A stretch of DNA of 60,809 nucleotides, from contig QZIR01000004.1 in assembly GCA_003604975.1 (NCBI GenBank), positions 1 to 60,809 of the forward strand, in the 5' to 3' direction. Below the pieces are notes generated by a model. The model did no database searches and was not told the DNA's origin. It saw only the letters and a program-made list of their open reading frames with translations. This stretch comes from Desulforudis sp. (lineage in GTDB: Bacteria > Bacillota > Desulfotomaculia > Desulfotomaculales > Desulforudaceae). The translations under genes and the position numbers were made by a program. Shown here piece after piece: positions 1,694-49,212 of this stretch. The first letter of the stretch is position 1. Every line of letters starts with the position of its first letter.

Positions 1694-2020
1694 TTAGGGC
1701 TGGTCGTCAGACGGTCCGCCGACCTCCCTCAGCAGTTCCCTGATGGCTCGTGAGGCGGCCTCGTTCTGTTCGAGGACGATACCTAAGCGGATTCCGAGCA
1801 GCAAAAAAGAGCGCAGGGCTTCCGGCATCGCCCCCGGGTTGTCCGGATCCAAGACTCCAAGCGTTCCGGGAGCAAACTCGTGCAGGAACTCGATGGTCGC
1901 CCTCGAAATAAAGCACTCCAGCCCGGGGCACTGGTTCAGGACATCTTCGGCACTGGGCGCGTCTGCAAAGATACGGGCATACTCCTGGATGGCGCGAGTC
2001 CCAAAACTACGGTGTTCCAT
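1694..2020 (-). CDS. Hypothetical protein
   Basis: A 108-residue acidic, mostly helical protein (MEHRSFGTRAIQEYARIF... ending in a REVGG-rich tail). I do not recognise the family. It has two cysteines in an NQCPGLECF segment, no signal peptide, and one hydrophobic stretch (SFLLLGIRLGIVLE) that could be a buried helix. The start at 2020 is chosen over an upstream in-frame start because GGGAGG lies 8 bases ahead of it. It stands between the lipoprotein gene and the Agr-type module with about 200 bases free on either side, so it is probably its own transcription unit. Confidence 0.6.
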   Translation of the reverse strand: MEHRSFGTRAIQEYARIFADAPSAEDVLNQCPGLECFISRATIEFLHEFAPGTLGVLDPDNPGAMPEALRSFLLLGIRLGIVLEQNEAASRAIRELLREVGGPSDDQP

Positions 2021-2235
2021 CGTCTGAGCCTCCCTTTTGCTCCCCGTGAGCCAATCAGGCCAATAAACGCGGCTATGATCACTTACCGGCCGAACAAACC
2101 TCACAGATCTATATCCTGATGTTATCCGGAATTGGCGACAATATCAAGTTCATGGGCTTTTGTGCACAAATGACAGGGAAGCTTACAAAAGGAAGGAATT
2201 GAAGGGGAGCGTCTACCGACCGGTACCGGGTTCGT

Positions 2236-4125
2236 CTACGGGTTTGTCCGGGGTAGCGCAATCCGGAAGGTAGTGCCTTCGGGGGAGGAATCGACGGTCA
2301 GGCTGCCCCCGTGGCTCCTGATGATTTCGCTGGTGATGGCCAGACCGAGACCGGTGCCGGATTCCTTAGTGGTAAAGAAGGGTACGAAAACCTGGTCTAC
2401 CTTCTCGGGCGGGATGCCGCACCCGGTGTCGGTCACCGAAAGGCAAACCTGTTCCCGGTCACCGCCGCAGGAGATTGTCACCCGCCCACCGGCCGGGGTG
2501 GCCTCAAAGGCGTTGTTCACGAGGTTCAGCACCACCTGCCGCAGCAGCTGGGCGTCGGCACGGACCGGTAAGAACTCGGATGGAAGCTCTTTCACCAGTT
2601 CAACCTGGCAGTTCAGGCTCTCGTTGTAGATCAGTTCCCAGATCCAGAGCACGGTTTCCCGGAGGTCGAGGTCCCGGAAAGCAGGTTTGGACGGCTTGGA
2701 CATCAACAGGAAGCGGTTTAGGATTTCCTGCATCCGGCTGATCTCCTCAAGGACAACGGTCAAGAACGGGGCGGCCGTTTCCGCGTTCCGTGACTCAACA
2801 GCCAGCTGGGTAAAGCCCTTGATGGATGTCAGGGGATTACGCAGTTCATGCGCCACTCCGGACGCAATCTGTCCGAGCGATGACAGGTTACGGACCCGCT
2901 GTAGTTCCAGTTCGTGCTTCTTCTGCGCGGTGATATCGTTTACGGTTAAGATAGTCCAAACCTGACCGTCGGGAGCGTTACTCCAGGTACTCCGGTTGAT
3001 CATTAGATACCGGTCGTTTATGGAGAGTTCACAGCCGGCACCCCGCTCCTTCAGAATCTCCTGTGGAACGCAGCTATTGTGCATTTCCAGGATGTCCGTG
3101 CCGTCTCTCCCGTCCAGGTTCCCATCCAGACCCAGGTACCGACAGGCAGCGTCGTTATGGACGCGGATCCGGCTCTTCCCGTCCAGGAAGATTACCCCGG
3201 TGTTCCACTCGGCCAGCAGCCGGTGCAGGAGAAGCTCCGACTCCCGGCGCTTTTGCCGGTCCGTCATGTTTTGGACCAGGATAACGTCCACCTTTTCTTC
3301 GCCGAAGGAAACCCGGTGACGGCTGACCTGAACCGGCACCGGCAAACCCTGTTCACCCGACAGTTCACCCAGGCAGACATGGCCTTCCGGTTGGGCGGCC
3401 AGAGCCCGAATCGCATTCAGGTTATGCTCCGCTTCCCTGTTCGCACCGCCGGTCAGCCGGTCCAGGTAGCGGTTCGCTGAAATGGTCCGTCCCTGCCGAT
3501 CCACGGTCAGGACTCCGACCGGGAGGGCATCGAACACAGTCTGCAGAAGAAGTGAGGTGTCGACCAGGTCCTGGTTGACCTTCCGGTTGAGTTCAGTAGC
3601 TTCCGCCAACAGCCAGGCTACAAAGACCAGCACCGAACAGGTCACCAGATAGTCGGCAACCTCCCACTGCGTGAATGAAGCCCTAAAAAGGAAGCCTATT
3701 CCCAAGATAGAGACCACGGCAATCGGTACGGCCAGCATTCCCCGACGGCCCAGCATCAGTGTGGAGATCACGACCGGGAAAAGAAAGAGGGCAGTCAAGT
3801 AATTCAGCTGGTAGGGAACAAACAATACGAGCACAACCACTGAGAACAGGGAGAAAACGGGGAAGGCAAAATGGCTGGGCGTATACTCCGGACCGATGCG
3901 CACCAGGCGCAAGCTTACGAGGCAGACAACCAGAAAAACCAGTGTGAGGACAAGGCCCTCCGTCGTCCTAACCGGGGGGTATACAGGCCGATCCGGAAAG
4001 ATGAGGGAAACCACCATCACGACCGCAAAGAAATTGACCAGCGTAGCAGTCAGAACCGCTGTCGAAAAGAGGTTACTGTAGCGCGGATGCACACTCTCAT
4101 GATTACGGATTTCAGGGGAAATCAT
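2236..4125 (-). CDS. Membrane PAS-domain sensor histidine kinase
   Basis: A 629-residue kinase. Residues about 20-180 form several membrane helices; two PAS-like regions follow (about 195-300 and 310-400); then HisKA with the phospho-acceptor in VAHELRNPLTS near residue 418, and an HATPase domain with N-box NLVNNAFEA, GCGIPPEK and ESGTGLGLAI. All catalytic boxes are intact. It resembles the sporulation/KinB-like orphan kinases of Clostridia more than AgrC, which lacks a HisKA domain of this kind. Its start overlaps the stop of the preceding membrane-protein gene by ATGA, and that gene lies downstream of agrB-agrD. I infer it belongs to the peptide-signalling module, possibly as the receptor or as a kinase modulated by the membrane protein. 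No response regulator is encoded next to it. Confidence 0.85.
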   Translation of the reverse strand: MISPEIRNHESVHPRYSNLFSTAVLTATLVNFFAVVMVVSLIFPDRPVYPPVRTTEGLVLTLVFLVVCLVSLRLVRIGPEYTPSHFAFPVFSLFSVVVLVLFVPYQLNYLTALFLFPVVISTLMLGRRGMLAVPIAVVSILGIGFLFRASFTQWEVADYLVTCSVLVFVAWLLAEATELNRKVNQDLVDTSLLLQTVFDALPVGVLTVDRQGRTISANRYLDRLTGGANREAEHNLNAIRALAAQPEGHVCLGELSGEQGLPVPVQVSRHRVSFGEEKVDVILVQNMTDRQKRRESELLLHRLLAEWNTGVIFLDGKSRIRVHNDAACRYLGLDGNLDGRDGTDILEMHNSCVPQEILKERGAGCELSINDRYLMINRSTWSNAPDGQVWTILTVNDITAQKKHELELQRVRNLSSLGQIASGVAHELRNPLTSIKGFTQLAVESRNAETAAPFLTVVLEEISRMQEILNRFLLMSKPSKPAFRDLDLRETVLWIWELIYNESLNCQVELVKELPSEFLPVRADAQLLRQVVLNLVNNAFEATPAGGRVTISCGGDREQVCLSVTDTGCGIPPEKVDQVFVPFFTTKESGTGLGLAITSEIIRSHGGSLTVDSSPEGTTFRIALPRTNP

Positions 4126-4601
4126 CTCAGTACCTCTTGCCTTTCTTTAAACGGTCTGATTCCGCCGCGCCGGTACAACCGCCAGGCGATCAGAGCAATC
4201 ACTAAGGTGTTCGGCAGTCCGATAAGGGCCAACAACAAGGGCTGAGTCTTCAGCTCATCCATGGGGAGCCCGACGGCGGACACAATTGCCGTGGTCAGTA
4301 CAGTCTCCAAAACAACTAGCAGTATCAGAGTAAAGGCCCACGCCAGGATCACCCTCTGCAAGGCGATGCGTTCCCAGGTGCTGATGGTTACGGACATCAC
4401 CACAAAGGTAAACAGGGTGTGAGCCGGGAACGGGGCGCCGCTGTTTCGGATAACATAAACCAGACTCAGGAACAACAAACCCAAACCCACTATTCGTGCC
4501 GGACCGGTCCTCAATCCTAGCAGGGCATAGACCATAAAGACTGTGGCCAGGCATTCCGGAATCCCCAGCACAAAAGCCGTTACAACCTCAAAAGGCAGCA
4601 T
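4122..4601 (-). CDS. Small multi-pass membrane protein of the Agr-like module
   Basis: A 159-residue, very hydrophobic protein with four or five predicted membrane helices and a short basic C-terminus (RLYRRGGIRPFKERQ). The ATG at 4601 has GGGGAGGAA directly ahead. It overlaps the following kinase gene by 4 bases (ATGA), so the two are co-translated. Small membrane proteins of this shape are often found between agrD-like genes and PAS kinases in Desulfotomaculum relatives; I believe this is the same arrangement but cannot name a characterised homologue. It could be a peptide-sensing partner of the kinase or a structural membrane subunit. Confidence 0.7.
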   Translation of the reverse strand: MLPFEVVTAFVLGIPECLATVFMVYALLGLRTGPARIVGLGLLFLSLVYVIRNSGAPFPAHTLFTFVVMSVTISTWERIALQRVILAWAFTLILLVVLETVLTTAIVSAVGLPMDELKTQPLLLALIGLPNTLVIALIAWRLYRRGGIRPFKERQEVLR

Positions 4602-4701
4602 ATCATTTCCTCCCCGCATACCTGTAAGACCGGACCGGTTCTCGATAAAGTCCGAATTGCGTCACGGAACGCTCTTACAGAAAAGGTACCTTCCACAGAG
4701 A

Positions 4702-4731
4702 ATGGGGGACGAGTTTCAAACCGTCCCCCAT
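4702..4731. repeat. Perfect GC-rich hairpin (REP-like)
   Basis: A 30-nt inverted repeat whose arms ATGGGGGACG and CGTCCCCCAT pair perfectly over 10 bases, closing a loop of 10 bases. It lies between the agrD-like gene and the membrane-protein gene. There is no T-run after either arm, so it is not a standard intrinsic terminator. It may trim or attenuate the mRNA between agrBD and the kinase genes, or be one copy of a dispersed REP-like palindrome. Confidence 0.6.
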
Positions 4732-4744
4732 CTCTCCCTCAGAC

Positions 4745-4870
4745 TCAGATCCTCTTAGGTGGTTCGGGCTGATAAAGACTCCAAACGCAGGCCGAGGCTG
4801 TTCCTACCATTGCGAAGAGTGAGAGCACAGTCGTAAGTGTTAATAGAAAAGCGATTTTCAGTCTGCCCAT
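4745..4870 (-). CDS. agrD: AgrD-type cyclic lactone autoinducer peptide precursor
   Basis: A 41-residue open frame: a basic N-terminus (MGRLK), an amphipathic/hydrophobic helix, a TASAC segment, and the tail CVWSLYQPEPPKRI. This matches the cyclic lactone autoinducer peptide pattern of Clostridia, in which a cysteine within an SAC motif forms the thiolactone and a YQP-x-P tail is removed by AgrB. The expected signal is a small ring starting at Cys28 within CVWSLY; the exact cut is inferred. Its ribosome binding site GGGGGTGA contains the stop codon of agrB and the ATG follows six bases later, so translation is coupled. Peptide and processing enzyme thus form one unit, and the gene is easy to miss because it is so short. 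Confidence 0.85.
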   Translation of the reverse strand: MGRLKIAFLLTLTTVLSLFAMVGTASACVWSLYQPEPPKRI

Positions 4871-4876
4871 CCAAGG

Positions 4877-5524
4877 TCACCCCCTCTCCTTTGCGACTCC
4901 TCCTAATACGGCAGCGCCGTATCTCATTACGCGATCCAAAGCGTCCGTCAGGAGATGGGCGGGACGGGTCAGCACGAACGCGCTGCAGACCAGCCCCAAA
5001 GCACCGGCCGGTACCAGGGTCGGGGACGAAAACACCTGCAGGAGGCCGACCAACACCACTGAAACAGACAGTACGGCCAGGATACTGTATCTTTTCAGTC
5101 GTAATCTGCGTTCCGGATCCCGGATCGGATTGACCGGGTTGTCAACCGGGGCCAGCTTTGCCGTAAGACAGAGGGTAACAGCACCAGCAACCAATACGAA
5201 GTAGAGTTCACTGCCCGGCATGTGAGGGGAGAGTACCACCGCTGATTTCCCCAGGGCCGGGAATATCAGGGCCGACGAAGCCGAGCAGCGCCAAGGGGTT
5301 GAACAGTGGGCACCGCCGGCAAAGTTGCGGACCACGGCATAGGCCCCTAAAGCCACCAGAGTCTCCGGGAGACAACCCAGCAGCCAGGCCGTAATCACCA
5401 CGGCCAGGGCGGCGAGTAACGTGGATAGAACGCTTTCCGCCCCGAACCTTAAGACATCGGTCTTTTCCTCGTCCAGGGACAACTCTTTGGCCAGATACCG
5501 GGCCAGCCTATGCGCGCTCTCCAC
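4877..5524 (-). CDS. agrB: AgrB-like peptide-processing membrane endopeptidase
   Basis: A polytopic membrane cysteine endopeptidase that trims and cyclises AgrD. The family signature is present as RNFAGGAHCSTPWRC, with the catalytic pair His73 and Cys80 spaced by seven residues as in staphylococcal AgrB (numbering from the chosen start). About six hydrophobic segments follow. The start is uncertain: the GTG at 5524 lies 11 bases after a GGAGG and gives the usual amphipathic N-terminus (ESAHRLARYLAKEL); an ATG at 5542 is the alternative. The open frame runs further upstream to 5710, but that part covers an unrelated repeat and the hcp terminator. It is followed at once by agrD. Confidence 0.85.
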   Translation of the reverse strand: MESAHRLARYLAKELSLDEEKTDVLRFGAESVLSTLLAALAVVITAWLLGCLPETLVALGAYAVVRNFAGGAHCSTPWRCSASSALIFPALGKSAVVLSPHMPGSELYFVLVAGAVTLCLTAKLAPVDNPVNPIRDPERRLRLKRYSILAVLSVSVVLVGLLQVFSSPTLVPAGALGLVCSAFVLTRPAHLLTDALDRVMRYGAAVLGGVAKERG

Positions 5525-5617
5525 GGTGACATCGACCTCCATAATATGCCATAGCATACTAATACCTAGAATTTCTTCGTCAATCCCCAAATTCCTCTGT
5601 AAATTGGACAGAAATGC

Positions 5618-5682: not shown

Positions 5683-5708
5683 AAAAAAGGCGGGGGATCT
5701 CCCCCGCC
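5683..5708 (-). terminator. Intrinsic terminator after hcp
   Basis: On the minus strand a 9-base-pair stem GGCGGGGGA/TCCCCCGCC with a two-base loop is followed by six T. It starts about 40 bases beyond the hcp stop codon and separates hcp from the agr-like operon. Confidence 0.9.
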
Positions 5709-27078: not shown

Positions 27079-29034
27079 CTACTGGTCAAGTAGATTTACG
27101 GAAGTCGTAAGACGTAATGATTCCAAGAATCTGGCTGCAAGCCGCGGATCAAACTGTGTTCCGGCGCATCTTATGATTTCTTTGGCCGCCTCTTCCGGGG
27201 CCAAAGCTTCCCTATAGGGTCTGCCACTCACCATCGCGTCATAAGCATCGGCAATAGCCAGGATGCGGCATTCCAAGGGAATCTCTTCTCCCTTTAAGCC
27301 TAGAGGATACCCTTGCCCGTTCCACCATTCGTGATGCCGTAGTATCCACTCCGAAATGTGTGCCAAGTCCGGGGATGCCTGAGCGATGCGGTATCCGATC
27401 TCGCAATGCCTTTTCATCTCTGCATACTCTTCAGGGATAAGGGGACCTTTCTTGAAAAGGATCCGGTCAGGAATGCCGACTTTGCCGATATCGTGAAACT
27501 GGGCTAAAGTCCGCAGGTCGTTGATCCGGTTACTAGGCAGGTCTAGTAACTGAGCAAGGTTTACTACCAAAACCTGCAGGCGGTCTGCGTGCCCTTCGGT
27601 GATATAATCGCGTTCTTCCAGGGCCTTCATTAACGTGTTGACGATGGCGCTTCGAGCACTTTGGCTTCGGTGTAACTTCTCTCGATAAACGTTGTTGTCA
27701 GCTTCTTTGAAAAGGTCGTTCATCAGGACATCGGGGGATGTACGTACGGCATATCCTATGGAAACGCTAAGCAAGAGATTGGGTTCTTGGGCATTGTACC
27801 TTTCGATGGCCTGCCTGATCCTGTTACAGGATTCCTGAGCGGACTCTTCGTCGGTATTCGGAAGCAAGATCGCAAATTCATCCCCGCCGATCCGGGCTAC
27901 CATGTCCTCTTGCCGGAAGCAAGACCTAATCACTTTAGCCACCGTATCCAACAGTTCGTCGCCTTCACTATGCCCCATAGTGTCGTTGATGAGCTTCAGC
28001 CCATCCACATCAGACAAGATAATCGTCACTGGAACAAACCGCCCTACCTCAATTCTGTTCATTTCCTGTTCAAAGTACGTTCTGTTATAAAGCCCGGTCA
28101 GGGAGTCGTGCAGGCTTAGAAAATGGAGTCGCTGTACAACCATTTTGCGGTCTGTAATATTGCGGACAGAGCCAATGGCCCCGACGATCTCCCCTTTTTT
28201 ATTGTAGAGTGGAGATGCCATCTCGTGCAGGTGTATACTGCTTTGTCCATTGAGCTGAATACATATCTCTGCATGTAGCGTGTTGCCTGTGCGATAAAAA
28301 TTATTGTATTCAGGAGCAATTATGTTGTCCTCGACTCCAATATAATCAACCAGCAACTTCTGGTTCTCTTCGTAAAACGGGATGGCGTAAGCATAGTTGC
28401 TTGTCCCCAGTATGTCTGCTTTCTTAATGTTTGTTATCAGTTCGATAGCCTTATTCCAAGCGATAACCTTTTTATCCTGGTCAATCACGAAAGTAGCATC
28501 GGGCAGGAACTCAATAATGTCTTCAAGCTTTTGGTGGGCTAGCTCCAGTTCTTCCCGATGCTTTTCAAGAGCTTTTACGTTATACCTTAGCTCATCCTCG
28601 ATAGCCACTAGCTGTTCATTGGCCACTGCCAGCTCCAGGTTCGTTCTTTCCAGTTCCAGGGTGCTCTTTTTCAACTCCTTTTTCCAGTTTAGCAGGCTCA
28701 AGGCTTTCTCCAGTTGCTGAGTGTAGATGTATAGCAGGCGACCTTCGACTTCGGTGAAGTCTTGCTGTTTCTCAAAGTAGACGTATCCAAGTTCATCTAA
28801 GTTATTGATAAAGGTGTTCGGTGTTCTGTTCTCTGGCTTCTTGTTCGGCTTCTTGCTGCCGAACCCCCAATGCAGAAAAAACCTTTCGTGGGCAATCGTG
28901 ATGTCAAGAATCAGCCGTTCTACCCCAAAGAGCCTGCCCGCCCGGTCAACTATATCGTCGAAAAAATGCTCAACATTGTCATAAACAGACTCAGCAGAGA
29001 TTTCGTACAATACGGCCAACTCATTGAATTGCAT
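27079..29034 (-). CDS. PAS-GGDEF-HD-GYP cyclic-di-GMP enzyme
   Basis: A 651-residue protein. The N-terminal 110 residues resemble a degenerate GAF-like sensor; a coiled coil follows (about 120-175), then a PAS domain (about 180-290), a GGDEF domain (ILSDVDGLKLINDTMGH...ARIGGDEFAILL, motif near 383) and an HD-GYP domain (FHDIGKVGIPD near 514, ILRHHEWWNGQGYP near 570). GGDEF and HDIGK/GYP are all intact, so the protein could both make and degrade c-di-GMP. There is no membrane segment. The ATG at 29034 follows AAGGTGG. The FIST sensor gene ends 14 bases upstream, suggesting that FIST-sensed signals feed into c-di-GMP. Confidence 0.9.
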   Translation of the reverse strand: MQFNELAVLYEISAESVYDNVEHFFDDIVDRAGRLFGVERLILDITIAHERFFLHWGFGSKKPNKKPENRTPNTFINNLDELGYVYFEKQQDFTEVEGRLLYIYTQQLEKALSLLNWKKELKKSTLELERTNLELAVANEQLVAIEDELRYNVKALEKHREELELAHQKLEDIIEFLPDATFVIDQDKKVIAWNKAIELITNIKKADILGTSNYAYAIPFYEENQKLLVDYIGVEDNIIAPEYNNFYRTGNTLHAEICIQLNGQSSIHLHEMASPLYNKKGEIVGAIGSVRNITDRKMVVQRLHFLSLHDSLTGLYNRTYFEQEMNRIEVGRFVPVTIILSDVDGLKLINDTMGHSEGDELLDTVAKVIRSCFRQEDMVARIGGDEFAILLPNTDEESAQESCNRIRQAIERYNAQEPNLLLSVSIGYAVRTSPDVLMNDLFKEADNNVYREKLHRSQSARSAIVNTLMKALEERDYITEGHADRLQVLVVNLAQLLDLPSNRINDLRTLAQFHDIGKVGIPDRILFKKGPLIPEEYAEMKRHCEIGYRIAQASPDLAHISEWILRHHEWWNGQGYPLGLKGEEIPLECRILAIADAYDAMVSGRPYREALAPEEAAKEIIRCAGTQFDPRLAARFLESLRLTTSVNLLDQ

Positions 29035-29048
29035 AAGCGCCACCTTCT

Positions 29049-35052: not shown

Positions 35053-36336
35053 CTATCCCAGTACATCCTTGATATCATCCACCAGGTCCTTGACGAGATA
35101 CTCTTGATAACCCGCCTTCCGCACTGATCGCATTATGTCCCGTACGGGTACCAGGAGCGGATGGTCGATTGTGTTGACTCTCTTCAACCGGGACTCGGAG
35201 AGAGTAACCTCGGACATACAGTGCCCGTAATCATCTACCGTATAGCGCCAGGGAACAGCTTGATTGGGATAGCGCTGTAGAAGCCGGACAGCCATCTGCA
35301 GTCCTTCCGGGTCGAAATCACCTGAGTAGTAGATGATCGTATTGTTGGCAACAAGCTTATCTAGAAGCATCAGACAGGCCAATTTAAACTGCCCGTGCGT
35401 ACATACAACCGGCGGGAGGTATGTCCCGCTGAAGCCATCCATGATTTCTGAAAAGACACCGGAGTTTTCGACAACAAACACCACCCTTGGCTGATCCGGG
35501 TGATCGAAGGATGCAGCCGGGACAACTGCACGTATTCTGGCGATCTCCCTCAGGGGAACGTTTAGCACTGCACCATCGTCCCAGGACGCACGCCATAATG
35601 CAACCGGTTCGTTGCCTTCTCTAAGCGCCAAGAGGCCCGCGCAGGTGACGAAGTTCAGTAAATCATCCCGGATGATCCCAAAGTAGCCGAACAGCTCTGT
35701 TACTTCTTCTGCGGACAGCCGGCTGCTGATGGAATACCCTTGGTCCTGTTGGCTCCGGACTAGTTGAAGAGCCGCGATCAGGTAGCGGCCCTGGTCGGTA
35801 TCCAGGTCGAACCCATGCGGATCATGGACCGTCTGACTGGCGAAGACCGGTAGTCTCTCATATGCCGCGTGCTTTCCTGGCTCGCCCATCCGTGTTAGCC
35901 GGCTGAGTGCGGCCAGCACGTTTTCCAGTTGTCCGGACAAGACATCCGGGTGCTTTTCGAAAGCCAGATGAATTCCCCGGGTACCTGGGCCTGATCTCTC
36001 GATGTGCTCGAGCCATAACCGCCCATACGTACTGTCATGCTTACCGGCCAGATCCCGGAAAAACGAGACTTTCCGGCTCCTGTGACCTTCTTGCTCTTCC
36101 ACCCGTGTCAGGACATCGTGCCCCACATATCCATCCAGTAATTCCTTAAACCCTATCCCTGAGTATTTTGTTTTGCCCAAGGCATCGGTGAAGGTTTCCA
36201 AGGATACAGTAGCCGACATCCGCCCCGTGTAGTCCCGGCCCAGGAACAGGGAGAGTGCCTCCCGCTCCTGATTAGTCGGATTCTTAAGGGTGACGCTCCC
36301 ACCGACTCTCCCCAGTCCCTGATATTTCTTCATCAT
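35053..36336 (-). CDS. jetD: Wadjet type II subunit JetD (TIGR02679-type nuclease)
   Basis: The nuclease subunit of Wadjet, which cuts circular plasmids extruded by JetABC. The body of 427 residues fits the TIGR02679 family, with a toprim-like core: VVENSG (Glu near 289) and YYSGDFDPEGL (Asp pair near 340). The stated ATG is the first conventional start, but the family-like N-terminal segment RDAVRYFRDNRGFHRLFNL lies upstream in the same frame, up to CTG at 36438, three bases after the jetC stop. No ATG, GTG or TTG exists there, so a rare start codon or coupled re-initiation is likely. It is the last gene of the jetABCD operon. Confidence 0.88.
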   Translation of the reverse strand: MMKKYQGLGRVGGSVTLKNPTNQEREALSLFLGRDYTGRMSATVSLETFTDALGKTKYSGIGFKELLDGYVGHDVLTRVEEQEGHRSRKVSFFRDLAGKHDSTYGRLWLEHIERSGPGTRGIHLAFEKHPDVLSGQLENVLAALSRLTRMGEPGKHAAYERLPVFASQTVHDPHGFDLDTDQGRYLIAALQLVRSQQDQGYSISSRLSAEEVTELFGYFGIIRDDLLNFVTCAGLLALREGNEPVALWRASWDDGAVLNVPLREIARIRAVVPAASFDHPDQPRVVFVVENSGVFSEIMDGFSGTYLPPVVCTHGQFKLACLMLLDKLVANNTIIYYSGDFDPEGLQMAVRLLQRYPNQAVPWRYTVDDYGHCMSEVTLSESRLKRVNTIDHPLLVPVRDIMRSVRKAGYQEYLVKDLVDDIKDVLG

Positions 36337-36440
36337 AAGGTTGAAAAGCCGGTGGAACCCTCGGTTGTCCCGGAAGTAGCGTACAGCATCCCTAAGCAGG
36401 GCGCGACGCTGGGCCTCTTGATCAGATTGGGACTGCAGGG

Positions 36441-39400
36441 CTACGGTGTCCCGGTACGGGCTTCTCCCACTACGAATTGATGGTCGCCCCCCTCCTTACT
36501 TAGTAGATGCCTGATCTTCCCGTCCCAACGATAGTGAATCACGGTAACGTAGGGCTCATTCTGGGGCCGGACCAACTCAGAGATGGAGAGAGCGGACACA
36601 GTATCGTAATCGCCCCACAAGACCTGGGAGTTAATAATATAGTTGAAGCCCAGGTTTTCCATCAGATCAAACATATCCCGAATGTTGTGCTCATCAACCC
36701 CGGCAAAAGCCTCGTCTAGGGAAATGATGTATGGGGCGTCATCCCGGGCGTCCAGGTAGCGGGAATAGGCCGCTGAAAAGAGGGGGATGTACATCGCCAT
36801 CGCCTTTTCTCCGCCGCTGAACTTGTAGAACGCGTTGTTGGTCAGCTCCTTGCGCTGGTCCCCGGTCCGCCGGTAGTATAGGGTAAAGGCAAACCATTTC
36901 CGGTAGTCCAGGATCTCCTTGATGATCTGGTGAAAAGTCTCTCCATAGCCTTTGTCCTCAAGCGCCTCCCTGGCCCTGCCCACTCTGGACCGGAAGTGCT
37001 GGGTAACCCGCTGGACATCCTCTTCCTTATATAGCCGGGGATCACGCTGCAGCAGCTCGACCATGTCCTGCGTGTCCATCTCATATTCGTGCTCCGCTGT
37101 CCGCGGCCTCCAGCGAATTGAAAAGGTCAGCCCGCTGGAGGTGTTCCTCTCTTCCATCAGCCGGTTGATCTTCGCCACCCACCGTTCGGCACGGTTGATC
37201 CGGCCACGGATGATGCGACCGACACTGTGCATGATCACCTCTTCGTATAGCTCCCGGTCCCTTTCGGTGAGGATCGTCCTTTGGGTGTCAATGTCCTTTT
37301 CCATCCGGTTCAGCACATAATACGGGCTGACCCGTTTGCCATCGTATTCCATCAGTAGTTGAACCCTGCGCGCCTTTTGCCTTAGCTGATCGAGATGAAT
37401 GGTCAGTTCCTCGTCCTCTTCGTCCACCGTCTTGTCATCCATGGCCAGTACCGTCTCCTGCACCAGCCGGTACTCGATAAGCACCGCCTGTTCCCTGAAG
37501 AAAGCCTCGCTCAGCCGGGCGGTTACTTTATCCCGGTCAAGCTCCCCGGAAGTCGCGCCGTATTGCTGTACAACAGATTGGGCGATCCTGGAAACATCGT
37601 TATCCGCCGGGTCAGAGCCGATCTCCACCGAAACGGTCAGTTCCAGCTTGAGTTCGTCCAGGAAGGTCCTCTTCCAGAGCCCGTGCAGGAAACGCGCTGC
37701 TTCCTGTTTCCTACGCGTAACCCCAATCTCCTTCCTGGTGTCTTCGATCTTATGCCGGGTATCCCCGATCTTTGTGTTCAACTCCTCGATCGTCCCCGGT
37801 AGCTCTGCGAGGCGTTTCAGGACCTCTTCAATCCGCGCCCGTATTTCGTCAGCGCCCAGTTCTTTCAGCCGTCGAATAATCTGAGCCCGGCGTTGGCTGT
37901 TCGTCTCGAGTTCCCCGTTCAGAGCGGCAAGCTCCTTCTCCAAAACGCCGGCATCCCTGACCACCTCATCGAGGCTCCAGCGGCAATGAACGATACGGCT
38001 CCGGCAGTTGGTAAAATCCTTATGGGCCAATTCCAGCTTGTGCAGGTAATCGCGGTATCCGCGCATGTGCCTGAGCGCTGTGTCATAGGCCTCCTCGGTA
38101 CCCGGCAGCGTAAGACCCTCGGTCAGGGTACGCAGCCTGGCCCGCACCTCCTGGAGCCGCTCCATAGCCTTCCTGAGCAACTCGTCCTTCTTCTGGACCT
38201 CTTCGCCCCGTATTTTGACCTGCTGGCGAGACTCTTCCCGCATTCCATACGCTGCGCTGACATCGGCATCGCCTGGAAGCTCTGCATACTCTTTACGGAG
38301 CTGACCAAGACAACCCTGCAGTTGCTGCTCCGTCTGTTCCAGGGCGGCACGCTCGCTCTCGAGGACTTCAAGTTCGGCCGCCAACCGGTTGATCACCTCC
38401 TGCCGATACCGACGCCGTGCCTCCTTGCCGATATAGATCGACCGGTCCTGGCGGGGAGCATGTCCCTTGAGCAAAGCCAACCGGTAGCTCCCGTCCTCGT
38501 GTAGGAAGGCCTGGTCCCCCCCGGTATCGTCAATCAACACGCTGCGCAGCACATTGTCAATATCCTGCGTTGTGATGGCAGAGCCTACTGCGGGCGTAGG
38601 GATCAGGAAGTCGGCCAGCGTGTGGGCAAAAAGCTGTGGGGCGGGCCTGATCACCCGGTCGTGCCGGTCCACCCGGTCCAGGAAACGCTCCGGGACAATC
38701 AAGGCGTCAAGAAGCCCCATCTGGGTAATCGCCGCCTCAATGCGTTCCCTCTCCTCCTCGGTTACCCGTTCGTGGAACTCAACGGCGGCAAAGAAAGGCA
38801 GATAAGGAATCCCGGCCGCGTCAAGCCCGGCCCGCGCTGCCTCCGTATCCGGGTGGCGTTCCGGTTCCGGGTCCTTCTTCCTCTTCCACCCGTTCAGTTC
38901 TTTGTTCTTCTCCAGGATCGCCTGCTTCTTGACCTTGATCTGTTGCCTCTGGTCCGCCAGCTCTCCCCGCAGCCGTTCGGAATGGCGGACATAGGCCTCC
39001 GCCACCGCCTCCCGCACGTCTTCGAAGCGGTACGGTTCAAACATCTGCAAGGCCCGCTCGGATGTCCGCTGGATTTCATCTTCTGACAACAGCATTTCTC
39101 GGTTCTGCTTAACCCAAAAGTGGAAGACACTCAGGAAACGACCCCTTTCCTCGTCGAAGAACGCATCGGCCTTGGACGCTTCGTGTTCGGCCTGATCCAG
39201 CTGACGCTGCGCCTCGCCCCGGTCGCGGTCGGCCTCTTCGAACTTCTCCCTGGCCCGGCTCTGTTCACGAAGCACCTTCAGGATGCCGTCCAGCCTGGCC
39301 AGGTAGTCTTCGGCCTCTTTCTTCCAAAGGATAAAGGTGAACTCTTCCTTGTGTTTCCGACGGAACTCTTCTGCCGCGATATGGTGACCGGTAAACAGGG

Positions 39401-40628
39401 CTTCACCCGCTTCAGTGGCCAGGTTGTCCAGTAGGCCCTTCATTGCTGTCTCCGCTTTGGTGGTCTTGGCTTCTTCCCCTTCGATTTCGCGGCGCAGTCT
39501 GAGTTCGCTCTGTCGTTTCTGCTCCAGTCCGTTGGTCTTCTTACGAATGTTCTCCTGAAGGGTGGCGATATTCCTTTCGATCCCCACCTTGTCGGCCTCG
39601 GCCTTAAAGACATCATGCTCCTTCAAGGCTGCCTCTTCACCCTTAAGGACCACCTCTTCACGTTTAAGCTGCTCCCATTCGGCTGTAAGCCGGGCATGAT
39701 CCTCGCGGTCCTGTTCAAGGGAATTCAACAGTTTCCTCTCCCTGATGTCCAGGTCGTCACCCTTCTTCTGTGCCCGTAGGTACCCATCAGCCTTCTCGGC
39801 CAGGACAAACCGGTTGTACACATCATATTGCCGGCACAGATTTTTCAGCGAGCGCTGGTCCCGCAGCAGCTGGTCCAGCTGCTGTTTAGTCTGGTCCATG
39901 TTCTCAATGGTCTCTGAGAGTGGACGCAGTTCATCGTCCGAAAGGCCCGGCAGGGAATCGTTAAGGATCTCGTAAATAATTGTGGGTTTGAAATCCTTGG
40001 AGAGCTTGGGGCTCCTCAGTTGGATCAGGAGCTTGATCAGGTCCTCAAAGGCATCCAGGGACTCAAAGCCAAAAATATGCTTATTAACAAGCTCGACGTA
40101 CTCCTTCTGCGTCCGTACCACCCTGCCGCCCTGTCCCAGCCTGTTTTCCAAATCCCGTCTGACCAGGGGGATCTTCTGTTCCTTCCCGTCTTCCAGGCTG
40201 TACTCGGTCTTGTACAACACCAGGTCACGGCCGATGCGCCTGTTATCCAGGATGATAAAACCCCAGAACTGCAGGTTGCTGTCGCGCTTAGCGCGTAGAC
40301 CGATACCGGTGGTCAGGTACTGATCCATTCCCTGCCGCTGATACTCCAGATAGAGGTAGCCGGTACGCTCGTCACGGTCGACCACTCCTTTCTCACCAAG
40401 GAGATAGTCCTCCATTCTCCGTGCCCGGGAACCGAATGGGTCTAAGCGGTCCGGGCTTTTTCTGCCGTCCAGCAGCACCGGGATAAGGCTCTGCATCGTG
40501 ACCGACTTACCCGATCCGTTGCTTCCACGGAGCAGTAGCTTGCCGCCCGCAAAGTCCAGTTCTTCGTCGTCGTAATACCAGAAGTTGAAAATGCCGGCCC
40601 GATGCAGTTGCCACTTATTCCTTCGCAC
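36441..40628 (-). CDS. jetC: Wadjet type II subunit JetC (SMC-like ATPase, TIGR02680-type)
   Basis: A 1395-residue SMC/MukB-like protein that extrudes DNA loops. Walker A GSNGSGKS is at residues 35-42; long coiled coils span about 250-530 and 770-1010 with a hinge-like segment between (VSAAYGMREE...); the ABC signature FSGGEKAMAMY and Walker B IISLDEAFAGVDE are near the C-terminus. The start is GTG at 40628, overlapping the last 14 bases of jetB, with GGGAGGGGGAAA ahead; an upstream ATG gives a charged stretch unlike the family. In the type II Wadjet set it works with JetA (kleisin-like), JetB (KITE-like) and JetD. Confidence 0.93.
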   Translation of the reverse strand: MRRNKWQLHRAGIFNFWYYDDEELDFAGGKLLLRGSNGSGKSVTMQSLIPVLLDGRKSPDRLDPFGSRARRMEDYLLGEKGVVDRDERTGYLYLEYQRQGMDQYLTTGIGLRAKRDSNLQFWGFIILDNRRIGRDLVLYKTEYSLEDGKEQKIPLVRRDLENRLGQGGRVVRTQKEYVELVNKHIFGFESLDAFEDLIKLLIQLRSPKLSKDFKPTIIYEILNDSLPGLSDDELRPLSETIENMDQTKQQLDQLLRDQRSLKNLCRQYDVYNRFVLAEKADGYLRAQKKGDDLDIRERKLLNSLEQDREDHARLTAEWEQLKREEVVLKGEEAALKEHDVFKAEADKVGIERNIATLQENIRKKTNGLEQKRQSELRLRREIEGEEAKTTKAETAMKGLLDNLATEAGEALFTGHHIAAEEFRRKHKEEFTFILWKKEAEDYLARLDGILKVLREQSRAREKFEEADRDRGEAQRQLDQAEHEASKADAFFDEERGRFLSVFHFWVKQNREMLLSEDEIQRTSERALQMFEPYRFEDVREAVAEAYVRHSERLRGELADQRQQIKVKKQAILEKNKELNGWKRKKDPEPERHPDTEAARAGLDAAGIPYLPFFAAVEFHERVTEEERERIEAAITQMGLLDALIVPERFLDRVDRHDRVIRPAPQLFAHTLADFLIPTPAVGSAITTQDIDNVLRSVLIDDTGGDQAFLHEDGSYRLALLKGHAPRQDRSIYIGKEARRRYRQEVINRLAAELEVLESERAALEQTEQQLQGCLGQLRKEYAELPGDADVSAAYGMREESRQQVKIRGEEVQKKDELLRKAMERLQEVRARLRTLTEGLTLPGTEEAYDTALRHMRGYRDYLHKLELAHKDFTNCRSRIVHCRWSLDEVVRDAGVLEKELAALNGELETNSQRRAQIIRRLKELGADEIRARIEEVLKRLAELPGTIEELNTKIGDTRHKIEDTRKEIGVTRRKQEAARFLHGLWKRTFLDELKLELTVSVEIGSDPADNDVSRIAQSVVQQYGATSGELDRDKVTARLSEAFFREQAVLIEYRLVQETVLAMDDKTVDEEDEELTIHLDQLRQKARRVQLLMEYDGKRVSPYYVLNRMEKDIDTQRTILTERDRELYEEVIMHSVGRIIRGRINRAERWVAKINRLMEERNTSSGLTFSIRWRPRTAEHEYEMDTQDMVELLQRDPRLYKEEDVQRVTQHFRSRVGRAREALEDKGYGETFHQIIKEILDYRKWFAFTLYYRRTGDQRKELTNNAFYKFSGGEKAMAMYIPLFSAAYSRYLDARDDAPYIISLDEAFAGVDEHNIRDMFDLMENLGFNYIINSQVLWGDYDTVSALSISELVRPQNEPYVTVIHYRWDGKIRHLLSKEGGDHQFVVGEARTGTP

Positions 40629-41826
40629 TGATTTCCCCCTCCCGCACCGTACTTGGGTCAAAATCAGATGGATAACGGCCGGTAGTCCGGGCCAGCAGGG
40701 GCCTTAAGTGCACGGCCGCTGTCTCCGGGTCACGCTCCGCCATCTTCCACTCCACCAAAAACGCCAGCAGTTCCTTCGCCGTTTGGGAAATACCGGCCTC
40801 ACGGTACTGCTTGCTCCATCCCGCCCCGTATCGCTCCTTGCAAATCCGCACCCACTTCTGGAAGTCCGGGATGGTCAGGCCAAGAATGCCGTCGAACTGT
40901 AAGGGGATGTCGTCCTCCGCCCGCCGCTCACGCGCAACAGCCGCAAACTGGATGGCGATGTCGGAAATGGCCTTGTTGTCGGGGAAGAGGGTGAAGCGGA
41001 CCCGCTGCTCGGGAAGGGTCAACAGGGCCGCATTCCTGTACAGTTCGAAGCAAAAGCCGGTGTGCTTCTCGATGTCCTCACGGACCCGGTGCCTGTAGTT
41101 GCGCAGGTACAGGAAATCGGCCTCCACGGTGTCCCTACTGTACATGACCGGCGAGAGCAGCAACCGGCGGTACACCCTGTGCCGCCGCTTCAAGGCCTCA
41201 TCCACCCCTTCCGGCCAATCCGCCGCCAGGATCTCCTCTTTGGTGGCGAACTGGAAGAGGTCTTTCGGGTAGGAGCGCATAAAGTAGCGGGCGACCACGG
41301 GCACTTCGTACAGTACCTCGTTGTCTTCGGCGTAGTTGAACCCCTCGATCGTACCGTCTACGACCTTGAGAATCCCTAGATCAGCGGATGTGCGTAGGAC
41401 GCGGACCAGTGACTTGCGGTGTTCGTAGTGCGTCCAGTCCAGGGCGTCATCCCCGGGGTAGACCGCCCGGAGTTCTTCGCACAGGTCGGACAGCAGGAAC
41501 TGCTCGTCCACGGCCTTACTCTCCAGGTAGGCCAGCAGGCAGCAGAAAACGGCATAGTCGCGGGGATGATGGAAGGTCTGGATTCCCATCCAGGACTCGG
41601 GCTCGGCCGGGATTTTCTCCAGTTTGGCAAAATAGCGGTGGAGGATGAGACGGAATCCCGCCTTGTCCAGGAAATAGCTGCGCAGGACCTGCTCCCGTTC
41701 CCGAACAGACTGGTACTTTTCCGGTTCCTCATCACGCCGGATCCAGAACTGCTCCAGGAGATGCTCGGCGGCTTCCCGGGCGGCGTTGTCAAACTCGGAT
41801 TTGGACTGCTCCCGCTCTCTTCCCAA
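40615..41826 (-). CDS. jetB: Wadjet type II subunit JetB (TIGR02678-type)
   Basis: A 403-residue protein of the TIGR02678 family, the winged-helix (KITE-like) subunit that bridges the JetC heads and JetA. Typical segments are FWIRRDEEPEKYQSVREREQVLRSYFLDKAGFRL, TFHHPRDYAVFCCLLAYLESKAVDEQFLLSDLCEELR and VLRTSADLGILKVVDGT. The start is TTG at 41826 with AGGTGA just before it, eight bases after jetA. It overlaps jetC at the other end. It stands in the usual jetA-jetB-jetC-jetD order. Confidence 0.92.
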   Translation of the reverse strand: MGREREQSKSEFDNAAREAAEHLLEQFWIRRDEEPEKYQSVREREQVLRSYFLDKAGFRLILHRYFAKLEKIPAEPESWMGIQTFHHPRDYAVFCCLLAYLESKAVDEQFLLSDLCEELRAVYPGDDALDWTHYEHRKSLVRVLRTSADLGILKVVDGTIEGFNYAEDNEVLYEVPVVARYFMRSYPKDLFQFATKEEILAADWPEGVDEALKRRHRVYRRLLLSPVMYSRDTVEADFLYLRNYRHRVREDIEKHTGFCFELYRNAALLTLPEQRVRFTLFPDNKAISDIAIQFAAVARERRAEDDIPLQFDGILGLTIPDFQKWVRICKERYGAGWSKQYREAGISQTAKELLAFLVEWKMAERDPETAAVHLRPLLARTTGRYPSDFDPSTVREGEISAKE

Positions 41827-41834
41827 GGTTTCAC

Positions 41835-43349
41835 CTACTCCATAAACTGCAGAACATAATTGGGCATCCGGAGATTCCCGTCTTCAGAACGCAGGACTAC
41901 CTCGTGGTCATCGATCTTTGCCAGGCGGAAGGATCGGCCGGTCTCTGTCTTCCCGACCCAGTCCCGGCTGCCCATGCACCTGGCAATCCAATACAGCAGG
42001 GTCTTACGGACGTGGGGATCAACCACGGGCAGTTCCCCCACCACAATCCGATTGCCTCTCATCAATCGTTCAATCAGTGTTCTTTCGGCCTCTTTCTGCC
42101 GCAGGTACTCCGCCATCACTCTGGCCTTTTCGTCCTTGTGGCTGGCAGCGGCATTGGGCCTGGTTTTCTCCCGGTACATCCGTATCCGGGGGTTCAGCGT
42201 AATCTCTGTGGGCGGCTGGTCCCATATCTCGGCGTAGATGTCCTCGGTCTCTTTGGGGGCGGCGTACAAGTGACGGGTATGAAAAGCACCGAAAACAACC
42301 GCCGACAGTTCGTGCGCCGCTTGCAGGTCGGTACATGCCGCGAACCACCCGGCGATGTGCAGGTAGTCCCGCTTGCGACTGCGGAAGCTGTGGTGCTGTT
42401 CCCCCAGACGCTGGGCAAAGCGGGTAATCCGGCGGATCGTCTCGTTGGTGGCGTTCTGAAGGTAGACGAGATCACTCTCACGCCCGCCGCTGCCCAAAAA
42501 CCAGTCCTTCAGGGCCTGCCACTGGACCAGATATCTTTCTGCCACATCTTCCCGGGGCCGAGGTTCTTCAAGACGAGGAATGCTCAGGTAGTGATCGGCC
42601 AGACGCCCGGCCACCCGCTCGATCAGGCTTGGTGGGGTCTCCCTCAGTAACGTTTCAATGTGTAGTGAGGTCCGTTGCAGCACGGTCATAAAATCGCGCA
42701 GGTATTGTGTGATGGCCTCCTTGTAAGACAGAAAGGCTTCCGTCATCATCAATTCTTCGACGCGCTCGCTTTGCAGGTGGGCCAGATAGTCAGTCGCGTT
42801 TTCGGTCAGCTTGCGGAAGCTCTCATATGTCTCACTCCATAGAGCGTTCAGGGCCTCGCCGGTTAGTCTGTCAACGGCATACTTTTTCTCCTGGTCACCC
42901 TTTACGGGCCGGCCCTGTTCGGCGACAAGCCTGTTCAGTGAGGCCAGCAGTCGATCAAACAATGTCTTCTCAAGAGAGCCGCCAAATGACTCTCCCATCT
43001 GTTCCAGTTGTTGTACCATGCGTTCAATTTCGATTGTGTACGGGGTCGACTGGTAACGAAACCGCTTCTTCTTAAACTCCTCGATAGAAGTAACCTTACC
43101 GGTGTCCTGCCTGGGAATCAGATTCTTCCACTCTACCAGCTGATTCAAGTCCTGCTGTAGCTGCTCTGCTGAGTAGTCGTGGAAATGCGGGCTTTGCCGG
43201 AGATGTTCCAGGATTTCTTCGGGGAAAAGATAGTGACGAAGGCGCTCGTGTTGGTCATAGAAATAGCGCAAGACAGCCCGGTAACGCCAAGCGTTCCCGA
43301 CAGTAAGATAGGAGACTTCGGAGATGGGCTTGAGAAGTTGCTCATCCAT
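41835..43349 (-). CDS. jetA: Wadjet type II subunit JetA (TIGR02677-type)
   Basis: A 504-residue TIGR02677 protein, the kleisin-like scaffold of Wadjet. The N-terminus VSYLTVGNAWRYRAVLRYFYDQHERLRHYLFPEEI is the conserved helix pair; a helical middle follows, and the C-terminus ends in RLAKIDDHEVVLRSEDGNLRMPNYVLQFME. The ATG at 43349 is chosen; a GTG at 43361 four codons upstream is nearer an AAGG sequence. A weak TTGAGT/16/TAGAAA promoter lies about 40 bases upstream. As the first gene, it carries the operon's leader. Confidence 0.9.
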   Translation of the reverse strand: MDEQLLKPISEVSYLTVGNAWRYRAVLRYFYDQHERLRHYLFPEEILEHLRQSPHFHDYSAEQLQQDLNQLVEWKNLIPRQDTGKVTSIEEFKKKRFRYQSTPYTIEIERMVQQLEQMGESFGGSLEKTLFDRLLASLNRLVAEQGRPVKGDQEKKYAVDRLTGEALNALWSETYESFRKLTENATDYLAHLQSERVEELMMTEAFLSYKEAITQYLRDFMTVLQRTSLHIETLLRETPPSLIERVAGRLADHYLSIPRLEEPRPREDVAERYLVQWQALKDWFLGSGGRESDLVYLQNATNETIRRITRFAQRLGEQHHSFRSRKRDYLHIAGWFAACTDLQAAHELSAVVFGAFHTRHLYAAPKETEDIYAEIWDQPPTEITLNPRIRMYREKTRPNAAASHKDEKARVMAEYLRQKEAERTLIERLMRGNRIVVGELPVVDPHVRKTLLYWIARCMGSRDWVGKTETGRSFRLAKIDDHEVVLRSEDGNLRMPNYVLQFME

Positions 43350-43550
43350 TCTGGCGACCACGAACCTTATCGTTTTCTATGCGAACCGGATCATGACTCA
43401 ATTCTACGACATTCGCCCAAGTCCTTGGTTTAGGGTATCATTTCGGCATTCTTCGGCTGCAACACGTGACACCGATTGTAGTGGTACGTCTGTTTTTCAT
43501 GCCCTGAAAGCCTTGAGTTCCCTGGATTCCCATGGGGCGGGGGGTCAAAG

Positions 43551-45315: not shown

Positions 45316-46854
45316 ATGGCAACTAATCCCCCAAACGGCAACGGGCAACACCAGATTAAACAGGGCGATATCCACAATGCCGCCTGGGCCGCCTGCGATA
45401 CCTTCCGCGGAGTGGTCGATCCGGCCCAGTACAAAGATTACATCCTGGTGATGCTTTTCGTGAAATACATCTCGGACGTGTGGAAAGACCACTATGGGAA
45501 GTACCGCGAACAGTATGGCGATGACGATGTCCGCATCCGCCGCAAGTTGGAACGCGAACGCTTCGTGCTACCTAAAGGAGCCAGTTTCTACGACCTCTAC
45601 GAACAGCGTAATGAAGCCAACATCGGCGAGCTGATCAACATCGCCCTGGACGAAATTGAAGGCGCTAACAAGGCCAAACTGGAGGGTGTATTCCGGAACA
45701 TTGATTTCAACAGCGAAGCGAACCTCGGCCGGACCAAGGACCGCAATCGCCGCTTGAAAATGCTCCTCGATGACTTCAACAAGCCGCAGTTAGATATGAG
45801 CCCGAGCCGGGTTTCCGAGGATGTCATCGGTAATACCTACATCTACCTCATCGAGCGCTTCGCGTCCGATGCCGGCAAGAAGGCCGGCGAGTTCTATACG
45901 CCCAAAAAGGTGTCGGAACTGGTGGCCAAGCTGGCCGCTCCCAAACCCGGTAACCGCATCTGCGATCCGGCCTGCGGTTCGGGGGGACTGCTGATCGAGG
46001 CCGCCCGCGAAGTGGGGGACCGCAACTATGCCCTCTTCGGCATGGAGTCCAACGGCAGCACCTGGGCCCTGGCCCGGATGAACATGTTCTTACACGGGGC
46101 AGACAGCGCCCGCATCGAATGGTGCGACACGCTCACCAGTCCCGCCCTCGTCGAAAACGACCGGCTGATGAAGTTCAACGTCGTAGTCGCCAACCCACCC
46201 TTCTCTCTCGACAAGTGGGGAGCTGACGAAGCTCAGCACGACCGCTACAACCGCTTCTGGCGCGGGGTTCCGCCCAAGAGCAAAGGAGACTGGGCCTTTA
46301 TCAGTCATATGGTGGAAGCGGCACTCGAAAAAGAAGGCCGTGTGGCCGTGGTCGTACCCCACGGGGTGCTGTTTCGGGGAGCGGCTGAAGGCCGCATCCG
46401 TCAAAAGATGATCGAGGAAAACCTGCTCGATGCCGTGGTCGGTCTGCCGGGCAACCTCTTCCCCACCACCTCGATTCCGGTAGCCATTCTAGTCTTTGAC
46501 CGCAGCCGGGAAAAAGGTGGTGTAAACCAGAACCGCAAAGACGTCCTCTTTGTCGATGCCAGCCGGGAGTACCTGCCGGGCAAGAACCGAAACGCCCTCT
46601 CCGAGGAGCACATCCAAAAAATCGTGGAGACCGTCAAGGCCCGGCAGGATGTGGGAAAATACTCTCACATCGCCACTTTCGAGGGAATTCGGGAGAACGA
46701 CTTCAACCTTAATATCCCCCGCTATGTAGACACCTTCGAAGAAGAAGAAGAGATCGACATCGATGCTGTCCAGCAGGAAATCGATCAACTGGAAAACGAG
46801 CTGGCCGAAGTGCGGGCGAAGATGGCCGCCATGCTCAAGGATGTAGTGCGATGA
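45316..46854 (+). CDS. hsdM: Type I restriction-modification DNA methyltransferase HsdM
   Basis: A 512-residue N6-adenine methyltransferase: an N-terminal helical domain (residues 20-155), the AdoMet-binding motif DPACGSGGLLIEA near 216, and the catalytic NPPF motif (VVANPPFSLDKWG) near 295. The C-terminal VQQEIDQLENELAEVRAKM coiled coil binds HsdS. It methylates the host copy of the target. It is downstream of the half-hsdS and upstream of the Bro-N gene in the same operon. Confidence 0.95.
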   Translation: MATNPPNGNGQHQIKQGDIHNAAWAACDTFRGVVDPAQYKDYILVMLFVKYISDVWKDHYGKYREQYGDDDVRIRRKLERERFVLPKGASFYDLYEQRNEANIGELINIALDEIEGANKAKLEGVFRNIDFNSEANLGRTKDRNRRLKMLLDDFNKPQLDMSPSRVSEDVIGNTYIYLIERFASDAGKKAGEFYTPKKVSELVAKLAAPKPGNRICDPACGSGGLLIEAAREVGDRNYALFGMESNGSTWALARMNMFLHGADSARIEWCDTLTSPALVENDRLMKFNVVVANPPFSLDKWGADEAQHDRYNRFWRGVPPKSKGDWAFISHMVEAALEKEGRVAVVVPHGVLFRGAAEGRIRQKMIEENLLDAVVGLPGNLFPTTSIPVAILVFDRSREKGGVNQNRKDVLFVDASREYLPGKNRNALSEEHIQKIVETVKARQDVGKYSHIATFEGIRENDFNLNIPRYVDTFEEEEEIDIDAVQQEIDQLENELAEVRAKMAAMLKDVVR

Positions 46855-46936
46855 GAGGCCAATTCCTAACTCCCGCAACTAGAACAGACCATTTTGTTGA
46901 TCTCAAAGGATCGTTCACGGTCACGGAGGTGACACG

Positions 46937-49196: not shown

Positions 49197-49212
49197 AGGG
49201 AGGAAATCACGA

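Follow-up and report, generated by a model that had tools for sequence, protein, structure and literature searches.

When agrB and agrD stand together with neither a full-length AgrC nor an AgrA beside them, which protein could receive the signal peptide, and which response would it reach? The question is raised by a 60,809-nucleotide stretch of Desulforudis sp. DNA (GenBank assembly GCA_003604975.1, contig QZIR01000004.1, positions 1 to 60,809; genome of 3.14 Mb in 75 contigs), the whole of which is referred to here as the window, where agrB, agrD, the gene of a small membrane protein, labeled SMP, and a PAS-HisKA histidine kinase gene form a set of four, all on the minus strand (Table 1). 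The label CPL denotes the six-helix membrane domain of the partner protein, in this case the kinase. We propose, with a probability of roughly 0.58, that the locus encodes a split-receptor Agr system in which the peptide would act on SMP, SMP on the CPL kinase, and the kinase on Spo0F, Spo0B, and Spo0A, tuning entry into sporulation.

The signal-producing half of the system is readily recognized. AgrB carries the conserved histidine and cysteine residues (His79 and Cys86, invariant in an 18-row alignment, A2), and the adjoining AgrD combines a signal core with a PxxP-type tail; by sequence, both genes truly belong to the Agr signal type. The sequence-only reading had named the His/Cys pair of AgrB, an AgrD-type precursor, and a one-strand arrangement with the small membrane protein and the PAS kinase, all of which the domain searches and coordinates bear out: the kinase start overlaps the SMP stop by 4 bases. 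Its statement that AgrC and AgrA are missing holds for the full-length proteins, but the sensor half of AgrC is present in the form of SMP. The domains of the window kinase are HisKA and HATPase_c, so the SPOB_a and GHKL pair by which AgrC is recognized is absent from the locus, and no LytTR regulator is found in the cluster. The system is thus a variant of Agr, belonging to it through AgrB and AgrD and departing from it in AgrC and AgrA.

SMP itself matches no Pfam or NCBIfam model, and a scan of 77 relatives gave no family that two or more of them matched. Its nature is revealed by comparing two separately built profiles, one of stand-alone SMP (A6) and one of the N-termini of fused AgrC-type kinases (A7, 21 of the 26 fused N-termini), which hhalign aligned over 147 columns with a probability of 99.9 and an E-value of 1.3e-32; control comparisons of the SMP profile with AgrB and with a kinase alignment gave probabilities of 0.5% and 0.2%. 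Glu22, Arg58, His67, and Pro136 do not vary across 30 stand-alone SMP rows, Glu105 hardly does, and the fused rows share this conservation pattern, including the E, R, H, and E residues. Since the fused proteins carry SPOB_a and GHKL domains of the AgrC type (6/6 scanned), the SMP domain is the kinase sensor in those proteins. The profile homology and the shared conserved residues together identify SMP, at the level of sequence, as a free-standing sensor domain of AgrC-type kinases, the comparison having been made with kinases of the class rather than with Staphylococcus AgrC; it would accordingly be a candidate to bind the cyclic peptide. The AlphaFold model of SMP consists of five long helices, for which sequence searches gave no solved relative, Foldseek a best E-value of 0.9, and VIA a best Z of 6.0, to an unrelated helical protein. 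Because neither Pfam nor NCBIfam holds a model for the sensor domain, it is probably labeled hypothetical in many genomes.

Across SMP/agr clusters, three ARRANGEMENTS and four outputs were distinguished, and the receptor takes three recurring forms: a fused AgrC, an AgrC split in two, and a free sensor accompanied by a CPL protein with either PAS-HisKA or GGDEF/HD-GYP domains. Among the 118 clusters of the class set, 26 have a fused AgrC (22 with LytTR) and 22 a split pair of SMP and GHKL kinase (11 with LytTR); SMP is paired with a HisKA kinase in 35, with a GGDEF/HD-GYP protein in 23, and with both in one, and the rest have an unclassified partner (1) or none (10). The named set, which overlaps the class set in species, comprises 77 clusters, with HisKA (18), GGDEF/HD-GYP (40), GGDEF/HD-GYP plus HisKA (2), split GHKL (10), or fused (2) receptors, or no partner (5). 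LytTR is found in 0/60 CPL clusters versus 33/48 GHKL-type clusters of the class set; an earlier clustering gave 0/36 for HisKA versus 33/48 for GHKL (Fisher p 5e-12, uncorrected for relatedness).

The module of peptide and dedicated kinase that had been suggested for the window recurs in that SMP accompanies a HisKA kinase in 36 of the 118 class-set clusters, and in all 36 CPL forms the N-terminus of every HisKA partner; the one exception in the named set is a CPL-less HisKA kinase located beside a GGDEF/HD-GYP partner. The CPL profiles of the kinases (A9) and of the GGDEF/HD-GYP proteins (A10) were aligned by hhalign over 181 columns (probability 99.9, E-value 2.2e-33; controls 0.7% and 0.3%). 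Pfam confirmed GGDEF and HD_5 in 9/9 representatives, the tenth protein scanned being a CHASE4-PAS-GGDEF neighbor, and among 57 distinct GGDEF/HD-GYP proteins the HD-GK motif is kept in 56, HHE-GYP in 51, and an intact GG[DE]EF in 45. A quickly built tree of 103 CPL domains shows at least three switches of output by well-supported branches and seven by parsimony, long branches blurring the details. Loci of Moorella, Desulfofundulus, Clostridium, and others (L113, L078, L152, L169, L229) show SMP, agrB, and agrD followed by a membrane GGDEF/HD-GYP protein, an Agr cassette whose predicted output is cyclic di-GMP (c-di-GMP). The window also encodes a PAS-GGDEF-HD-GYP protein (27079-29043, minus strand), which is without CPL and not linked to the agr genes.

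SMP is widespread. A search with SMP only (E<=0.001) found relatives in 72/113 genomes of the class, and profiles iterated over the neighborhoods collected 139 open reading frames with an SMP domain, which in 26 cases is joined N-terminally to a GHKL kinase; the domain occurs in 156/398 genomes of an even phylum sample (E<=1e-5) and in 119/206 genomes of the family of one Clostridium. With AgrB rather than SMP as the query, 71 of 80 named agrB loci have a stand-alone SMP within 1 kb on the same strand, two have a fused form, and seven have neither, one of the seven (L205) carrying both an SMP and a GHKL kinase in front of agrB. SMP precedes agrB and agrD in 28/28 Clostridiaceae loci (26 with one SMP, 2 with two). 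Conversely, agrB and/or agrD accompany 100/118 SMP clusters of the class set, by a clustering in which eight clusters with GHKL kinases were classed as other, and 82/92 of those with a stand-alone SMP, part of the remainder lying at contig ends. Two to four SMP genes, some in tandem, stand by one agrBD at five loci (L093, L096, L100, L074, L104), possibly sensing several peptides.

The four-gene order of the window, whose conservation had been put forward as a check, is repeated in a locus of the same genus (L039) and in one of the same family (L040), so SMP and the kinase, not agrBD alone, are conserved. Neither does the kinase pair appear to be regulated separately: adjacent SMP and HisKA kinase genes overlap or nearly so (median -4 bases, 14 pairs). 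SMP often lies directly 5' of agrB, likewise overlapping (48 pairs, median -4 bases), a place that would suit a protein serving peptide maturation, export, or self-protection next to a kinase that is an unrelated neighbor or senses something else, and according to the available text of one report, complementation of C. perfringens agrB succeeded only with two upstream hypothetical genes included (PMC2706048). We regard this explanation as quite unlikely, since SMP is homologous to AgrC sensor domains and its HisKA partners in the class set all bear the same CPL rather than being random kinases.

In the class set, the chemistry of the predicted signal goes with the output arm. At the position five residues ahead of the YQPE-type motif, AgrD has Cys in 33/33 CPL-HisKA clusters and in 20/23 HD-GYP clusters, one more having Cys one place earlier; Ser occupies the position in 19/20 split-GHKL clusters, and the fused clusters are mixed. 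Cys stands at this position in 15/16 HisKA and 40/42 HD-GYP AgrD of the named set, whose ten split-GHKL sequences vary (3 with Ser, 3 with Cys, 4 with another residue). For the window AgrD, the predicted signal is a five-residue thiolactone, CVWSL, by analogy with the C. perfringens peptide, a 5-mer in the portion of the source available (PMC7492741).

Going beyond the sequence-only reading, a second agr locus was found in the same genome (contig C9, 87194-89719; L002, L038), comprising an SMP-like protein, LytTR, a GHKL kinase with two helices, agrB, and an agrD with Ser as the first residue of a core predicted to form a lactone; two chemically different signals may thus coexist in one organism. 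The presence of this split GHKL kinase would allow the window SMP to pair with a GHKL kinase elsewhere, the local kinase being independent. The C9 locus has its own SMP, and the distribution of Ser and Cys between the arms in the class set argues for separate channels, which makes such cross-pairing very unlikely.

Which regulator the window kinase might address is suggested by its specificity residues. Those predicted for phosphorelay kinases by Davidson and colleagues are TAGFQL in KinA, TSGFQI in KinC, and TTGFQL in Dtox_1918, which phosphorylates Spo0F in vitro (PMC6136694, consulted in part). The window kinase has TSGFQL at the same positions, at most one change from each of the three, in agreement with the phosphorelay-type kinase assumed by the sequence-only reading; of its label KinB-like, the phosphotransfer residues fit, but the membrane domain is a separate family common to c-di-GMP enzymes. 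Across 38 HisKA kinases of these loci, including that of the window, the residues are TTGFQL (20), TSGFQL (5), TTGFQM (4), or others (9). The position mapping is our own; it returned TAGFQL for Geobacillus KinB (3d36) and reproduced the QVGLQL listed in the table of PMC6136694 when applied to the Spo0B of this genome. This Spo0B, encoded directly upstream of obg, is identical at these residues to that of D. acetoxidans. By comparison, a kinase of the same genome followed by its own regulator has SNTSQI.

The window kinase is an orphan with a PAS domain and phosphorelay-type residues. Co-occurrence with Spo0A was considered as evidence and set aside as uninformative, Spo0A being present in 105/113 class genomes. 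Desulfotomaculum acetoxidans (G034) has two such agr operons, with kinases reading TTGFQL at 3.63 Mb and TTGFQF at 3.27 Mb, which by residues and position appear to be Dtox_3426 and Dtox_3081; both are listed as candidate sporulation kinases in PMC6136694, from the main text of which the word Agr is absent. The kinase tested there, Dtox_1918, is not one of the two.

The split-receptor reading would operate as follows. AgrB would cut and cyclize AgrD, as in its family, to yield a thiolactone peptide, which SMP would bind in the membrane; through helix-to-helix contact, SMP would then influence the six-helix domain of the kinase and alter HisKA autophosphorylation. The phosphoryl group would pass to Spo0F, Spo0B, and Spo0A, as the specificity residues suggest, so that the signal would tune sporulation entry. 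In relatives, the kinase of the cassette is replaced by a GGDEF/HD-GYP output.

Several points weigh against this reading, which is built on sequences and models. GFQL residues are common in other orphan kinases of the genome (five of nine kinases with a readable motif end in GFQL) and therefore mark a class rather than the window kinase alone. Of the relay proteins, the searches covered Spo0A and Spo0B, both of which the genome encodes. With the specificity residues themselves being predictions, the module could signal as described and the kinase phosphorylate a regulator other than Spo0F or Spo0A, an option that we find improbable in view of the near-identity to the residues of KinA, KinC, and Dtox_1918 and of the flanking genes checked, none of which encodes a response regulator. 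In gene order, agrD and not SMP directly precedes the kinase in 19/35 neighbor pairs ending in a HisKA kinase. Co-evolution between SMP and the kinase membrane domain was rejected as proof of contact, the correlation being no higher than that with AgrB: the distances of SMP, AgrB, and CPL correlate equally (0.84-0.86), which indicates a cassette that travels as one and leaves contact unproved.

CPL, moreover, resembles receptor-type six-helix domains in its model and could itself sense. Its best alignments extend along its full length to the six-helix domains of nucleotide cyclases, namely AC9 (Z 12.9, root-mean-square deviation 3.0, 168 residues) and the diguanylate cyclase ImcA (Z 12.2, root-mean-square deviation 3.4, 172 residues), with nine such rows, from adenylyl cyclases and ImcA, at Z 9.4-12.9 and the next, unrelated row at 7.3. 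On this basis CPL might be the peptide receptor and SMP a co-receptor or modulator, the chief competitor of the split-receptor reading. Helical bundles can reach Z values below about 13 through a common arrangement without kinship, and Foldseek gave no significant match for CPL, so the likeness is a lead only; since, in addition, the domain fused to AgrC-type kinases is SMP and not CPL, we judge a receptor role of CPL to be unlikely.

Taken more broadly, we give even odds to the proposal that a large class of split Agr receptors, so far without a name, exists in Clostridia, in which a free AgrC sensor and a six-helix adaptor are combined with either a Spo0-phosphorelay kinase or a GGDEF/HD-GYP enzyme, one cassette gating sporulation or c-di-GMP depending on the species and without a dedicated response regulator. 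Such a class, if true, would supply the missing receptor of many orphan agrBD operons; its GGDEF/HD-GYP version would link quorum sensing by cyclic peptides to c-di-GMP with no transcription factor in between, and the whole suggests a mix-and-match route from a chemical signal to different bacterial decisions.

Compared with the AgrBDCA systems of Staphylococcus and Clostridia, the window likewise encodes AgrB, AgrD, and an AgrC-type sensor domain together, but the sensor domain is separate and a HisKA kinase stands in the locus without a GHKL kinase or LytTR. The CPE1563-CPE1562-agrB-agrD operon of C. perfringens also has agrBD without agrC and agrA, co-transcribed with upstream hypothetical genes, according to the available text of PMC2706048, and CPE1562 would correspond to SMP; it differs in that VirS is reported as the receptor (PMC7492741, as far as available). 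The kinases of the Spo0 pathway, KinA, KinB, and Dtox_1918, share with the window kinase an orphan position, a PAS domain, and a HisKA with TxGFQL, but the window kinase has a peptide signal and a free receptor domain encoded alongside it and differs in its six-helix membrane domain. In C. difficile, Agr1 (agrB1D1) promotes sporulation without AgrC or AgrA at the locus, and the accessible passages of PMC10602386 and PMC11210211 call the AgrD1 receptor unknown and report no SMP or kinase there. For C. autoethanogenum, agrC-without-agrA operons are reported (PMC8748961, seen in part). In the open-licence literature, as far as its text was available, no description was found of an AgrC sensor domain standing by itself or of agr operons in which a HisKA or HD-GYP protein is the partner. 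Two open questions are named in the C. difficile sources (same passages), namely how agrBD operons without agrC and agrA sense their own peptide and how an Agr peptide reaches Spo0A, and a free AgrC sensor beside agrBD in an operon with a phosphorelay-type kinase makes both directly testable with a small set of defined proteins.

Within the locus, agrB and agrD are separated by 6 bases and agrD and SMP by 125, and the latter spacer folds into a strong hairpin (4620-4744: minimum free energy -49.9, z -3.05) without a T tract, absent from the terminator-scan listing. The hairpin recurs in L039 and, with other sequence, in L040, and might determine how much signal message is made relative to receptor message; an Rfam scan of the window gave no match.

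Table 1. Features of the agr locus in the window (pLDDT, predicted local distance difference test; pTM, predicted template modeling score).
Feature	Coordinates	Strand	Basis
agrB, AgrD-processing membrane protease	4877..5542	-	Pfam AgrB E 4e-37; start ATG 5542 or GTG 5524
agrD, 41-residue peptide precursor	4745..4870	-	NCBIfam AgrD TIGR04223 31 bits, cut-off 19; alignment A3
Predicted signal core C-V-W-S-L, five-residue thiolactone, ahead of YQPEPP	4775..4789	-	Cys position relative to YQPE-type motif; ring size by analogy
Hairpin between agrD and SMP gene, not a standard terminator	4697..4737	-	Fold of 4620-4744; alignment with L039 and L040
SMP, free-standing sensor domain of the AgrC type (165 aa) with five predicted membrane helices	4122..4619	-	hhalign; AlphaFold pLDDT 89.9, pTM 0.85
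PAS-HisKA-HATPase histidine kinase, orphan, 629 aa	2236..4125	-	Pfam HisKA E 4e-15, HATPase_c E 3e-29, PAS_8 E 4e-9
CPL, six-helix membrane domain of the kinase, common to GGDEF/HD-GYP proteins of other agr loci	3538..4083	-	hhalign A9 vs A10; AlphaFold pLDDT 82.7
HisKA domain with His426, specificity residues TSGFQL	2692..2877	-	Pfam and position mapping
Promoter-like site TTGACG-16-TAGTAT, just 5' of agrB	5556..5583	-	Consensus scan only
Terminator-like hairpin between upstream hcp gene and agrB	5689..5708	-	Consensus scan only; such sites no commoner than in shuffles

Desulforudis sp. J_13 is a close relative, its AgrB being 91% identical. The nearest relative, L039, has a second SMP copy behind the kinase (4879-5481), which shows 62% identity and is interrupted by an in-frame stop within the matched stretch; no such copy was found at the matching place in the window, where a 136-residue open reading frame without a Pfam or NCBIfam match lies just 3' of the kinase (1694-2104, minus strand). 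Farther along the window, PADLOC identified a Type II Wadjet set with JetA, JetB, JetC, and JetD matches (35053-43361, minus strand). There are also Type I restriction-modification genes (45316-53324, plus strand); they encode at least two specificity-like subunits, of which two match the candidate system PDC-S13.

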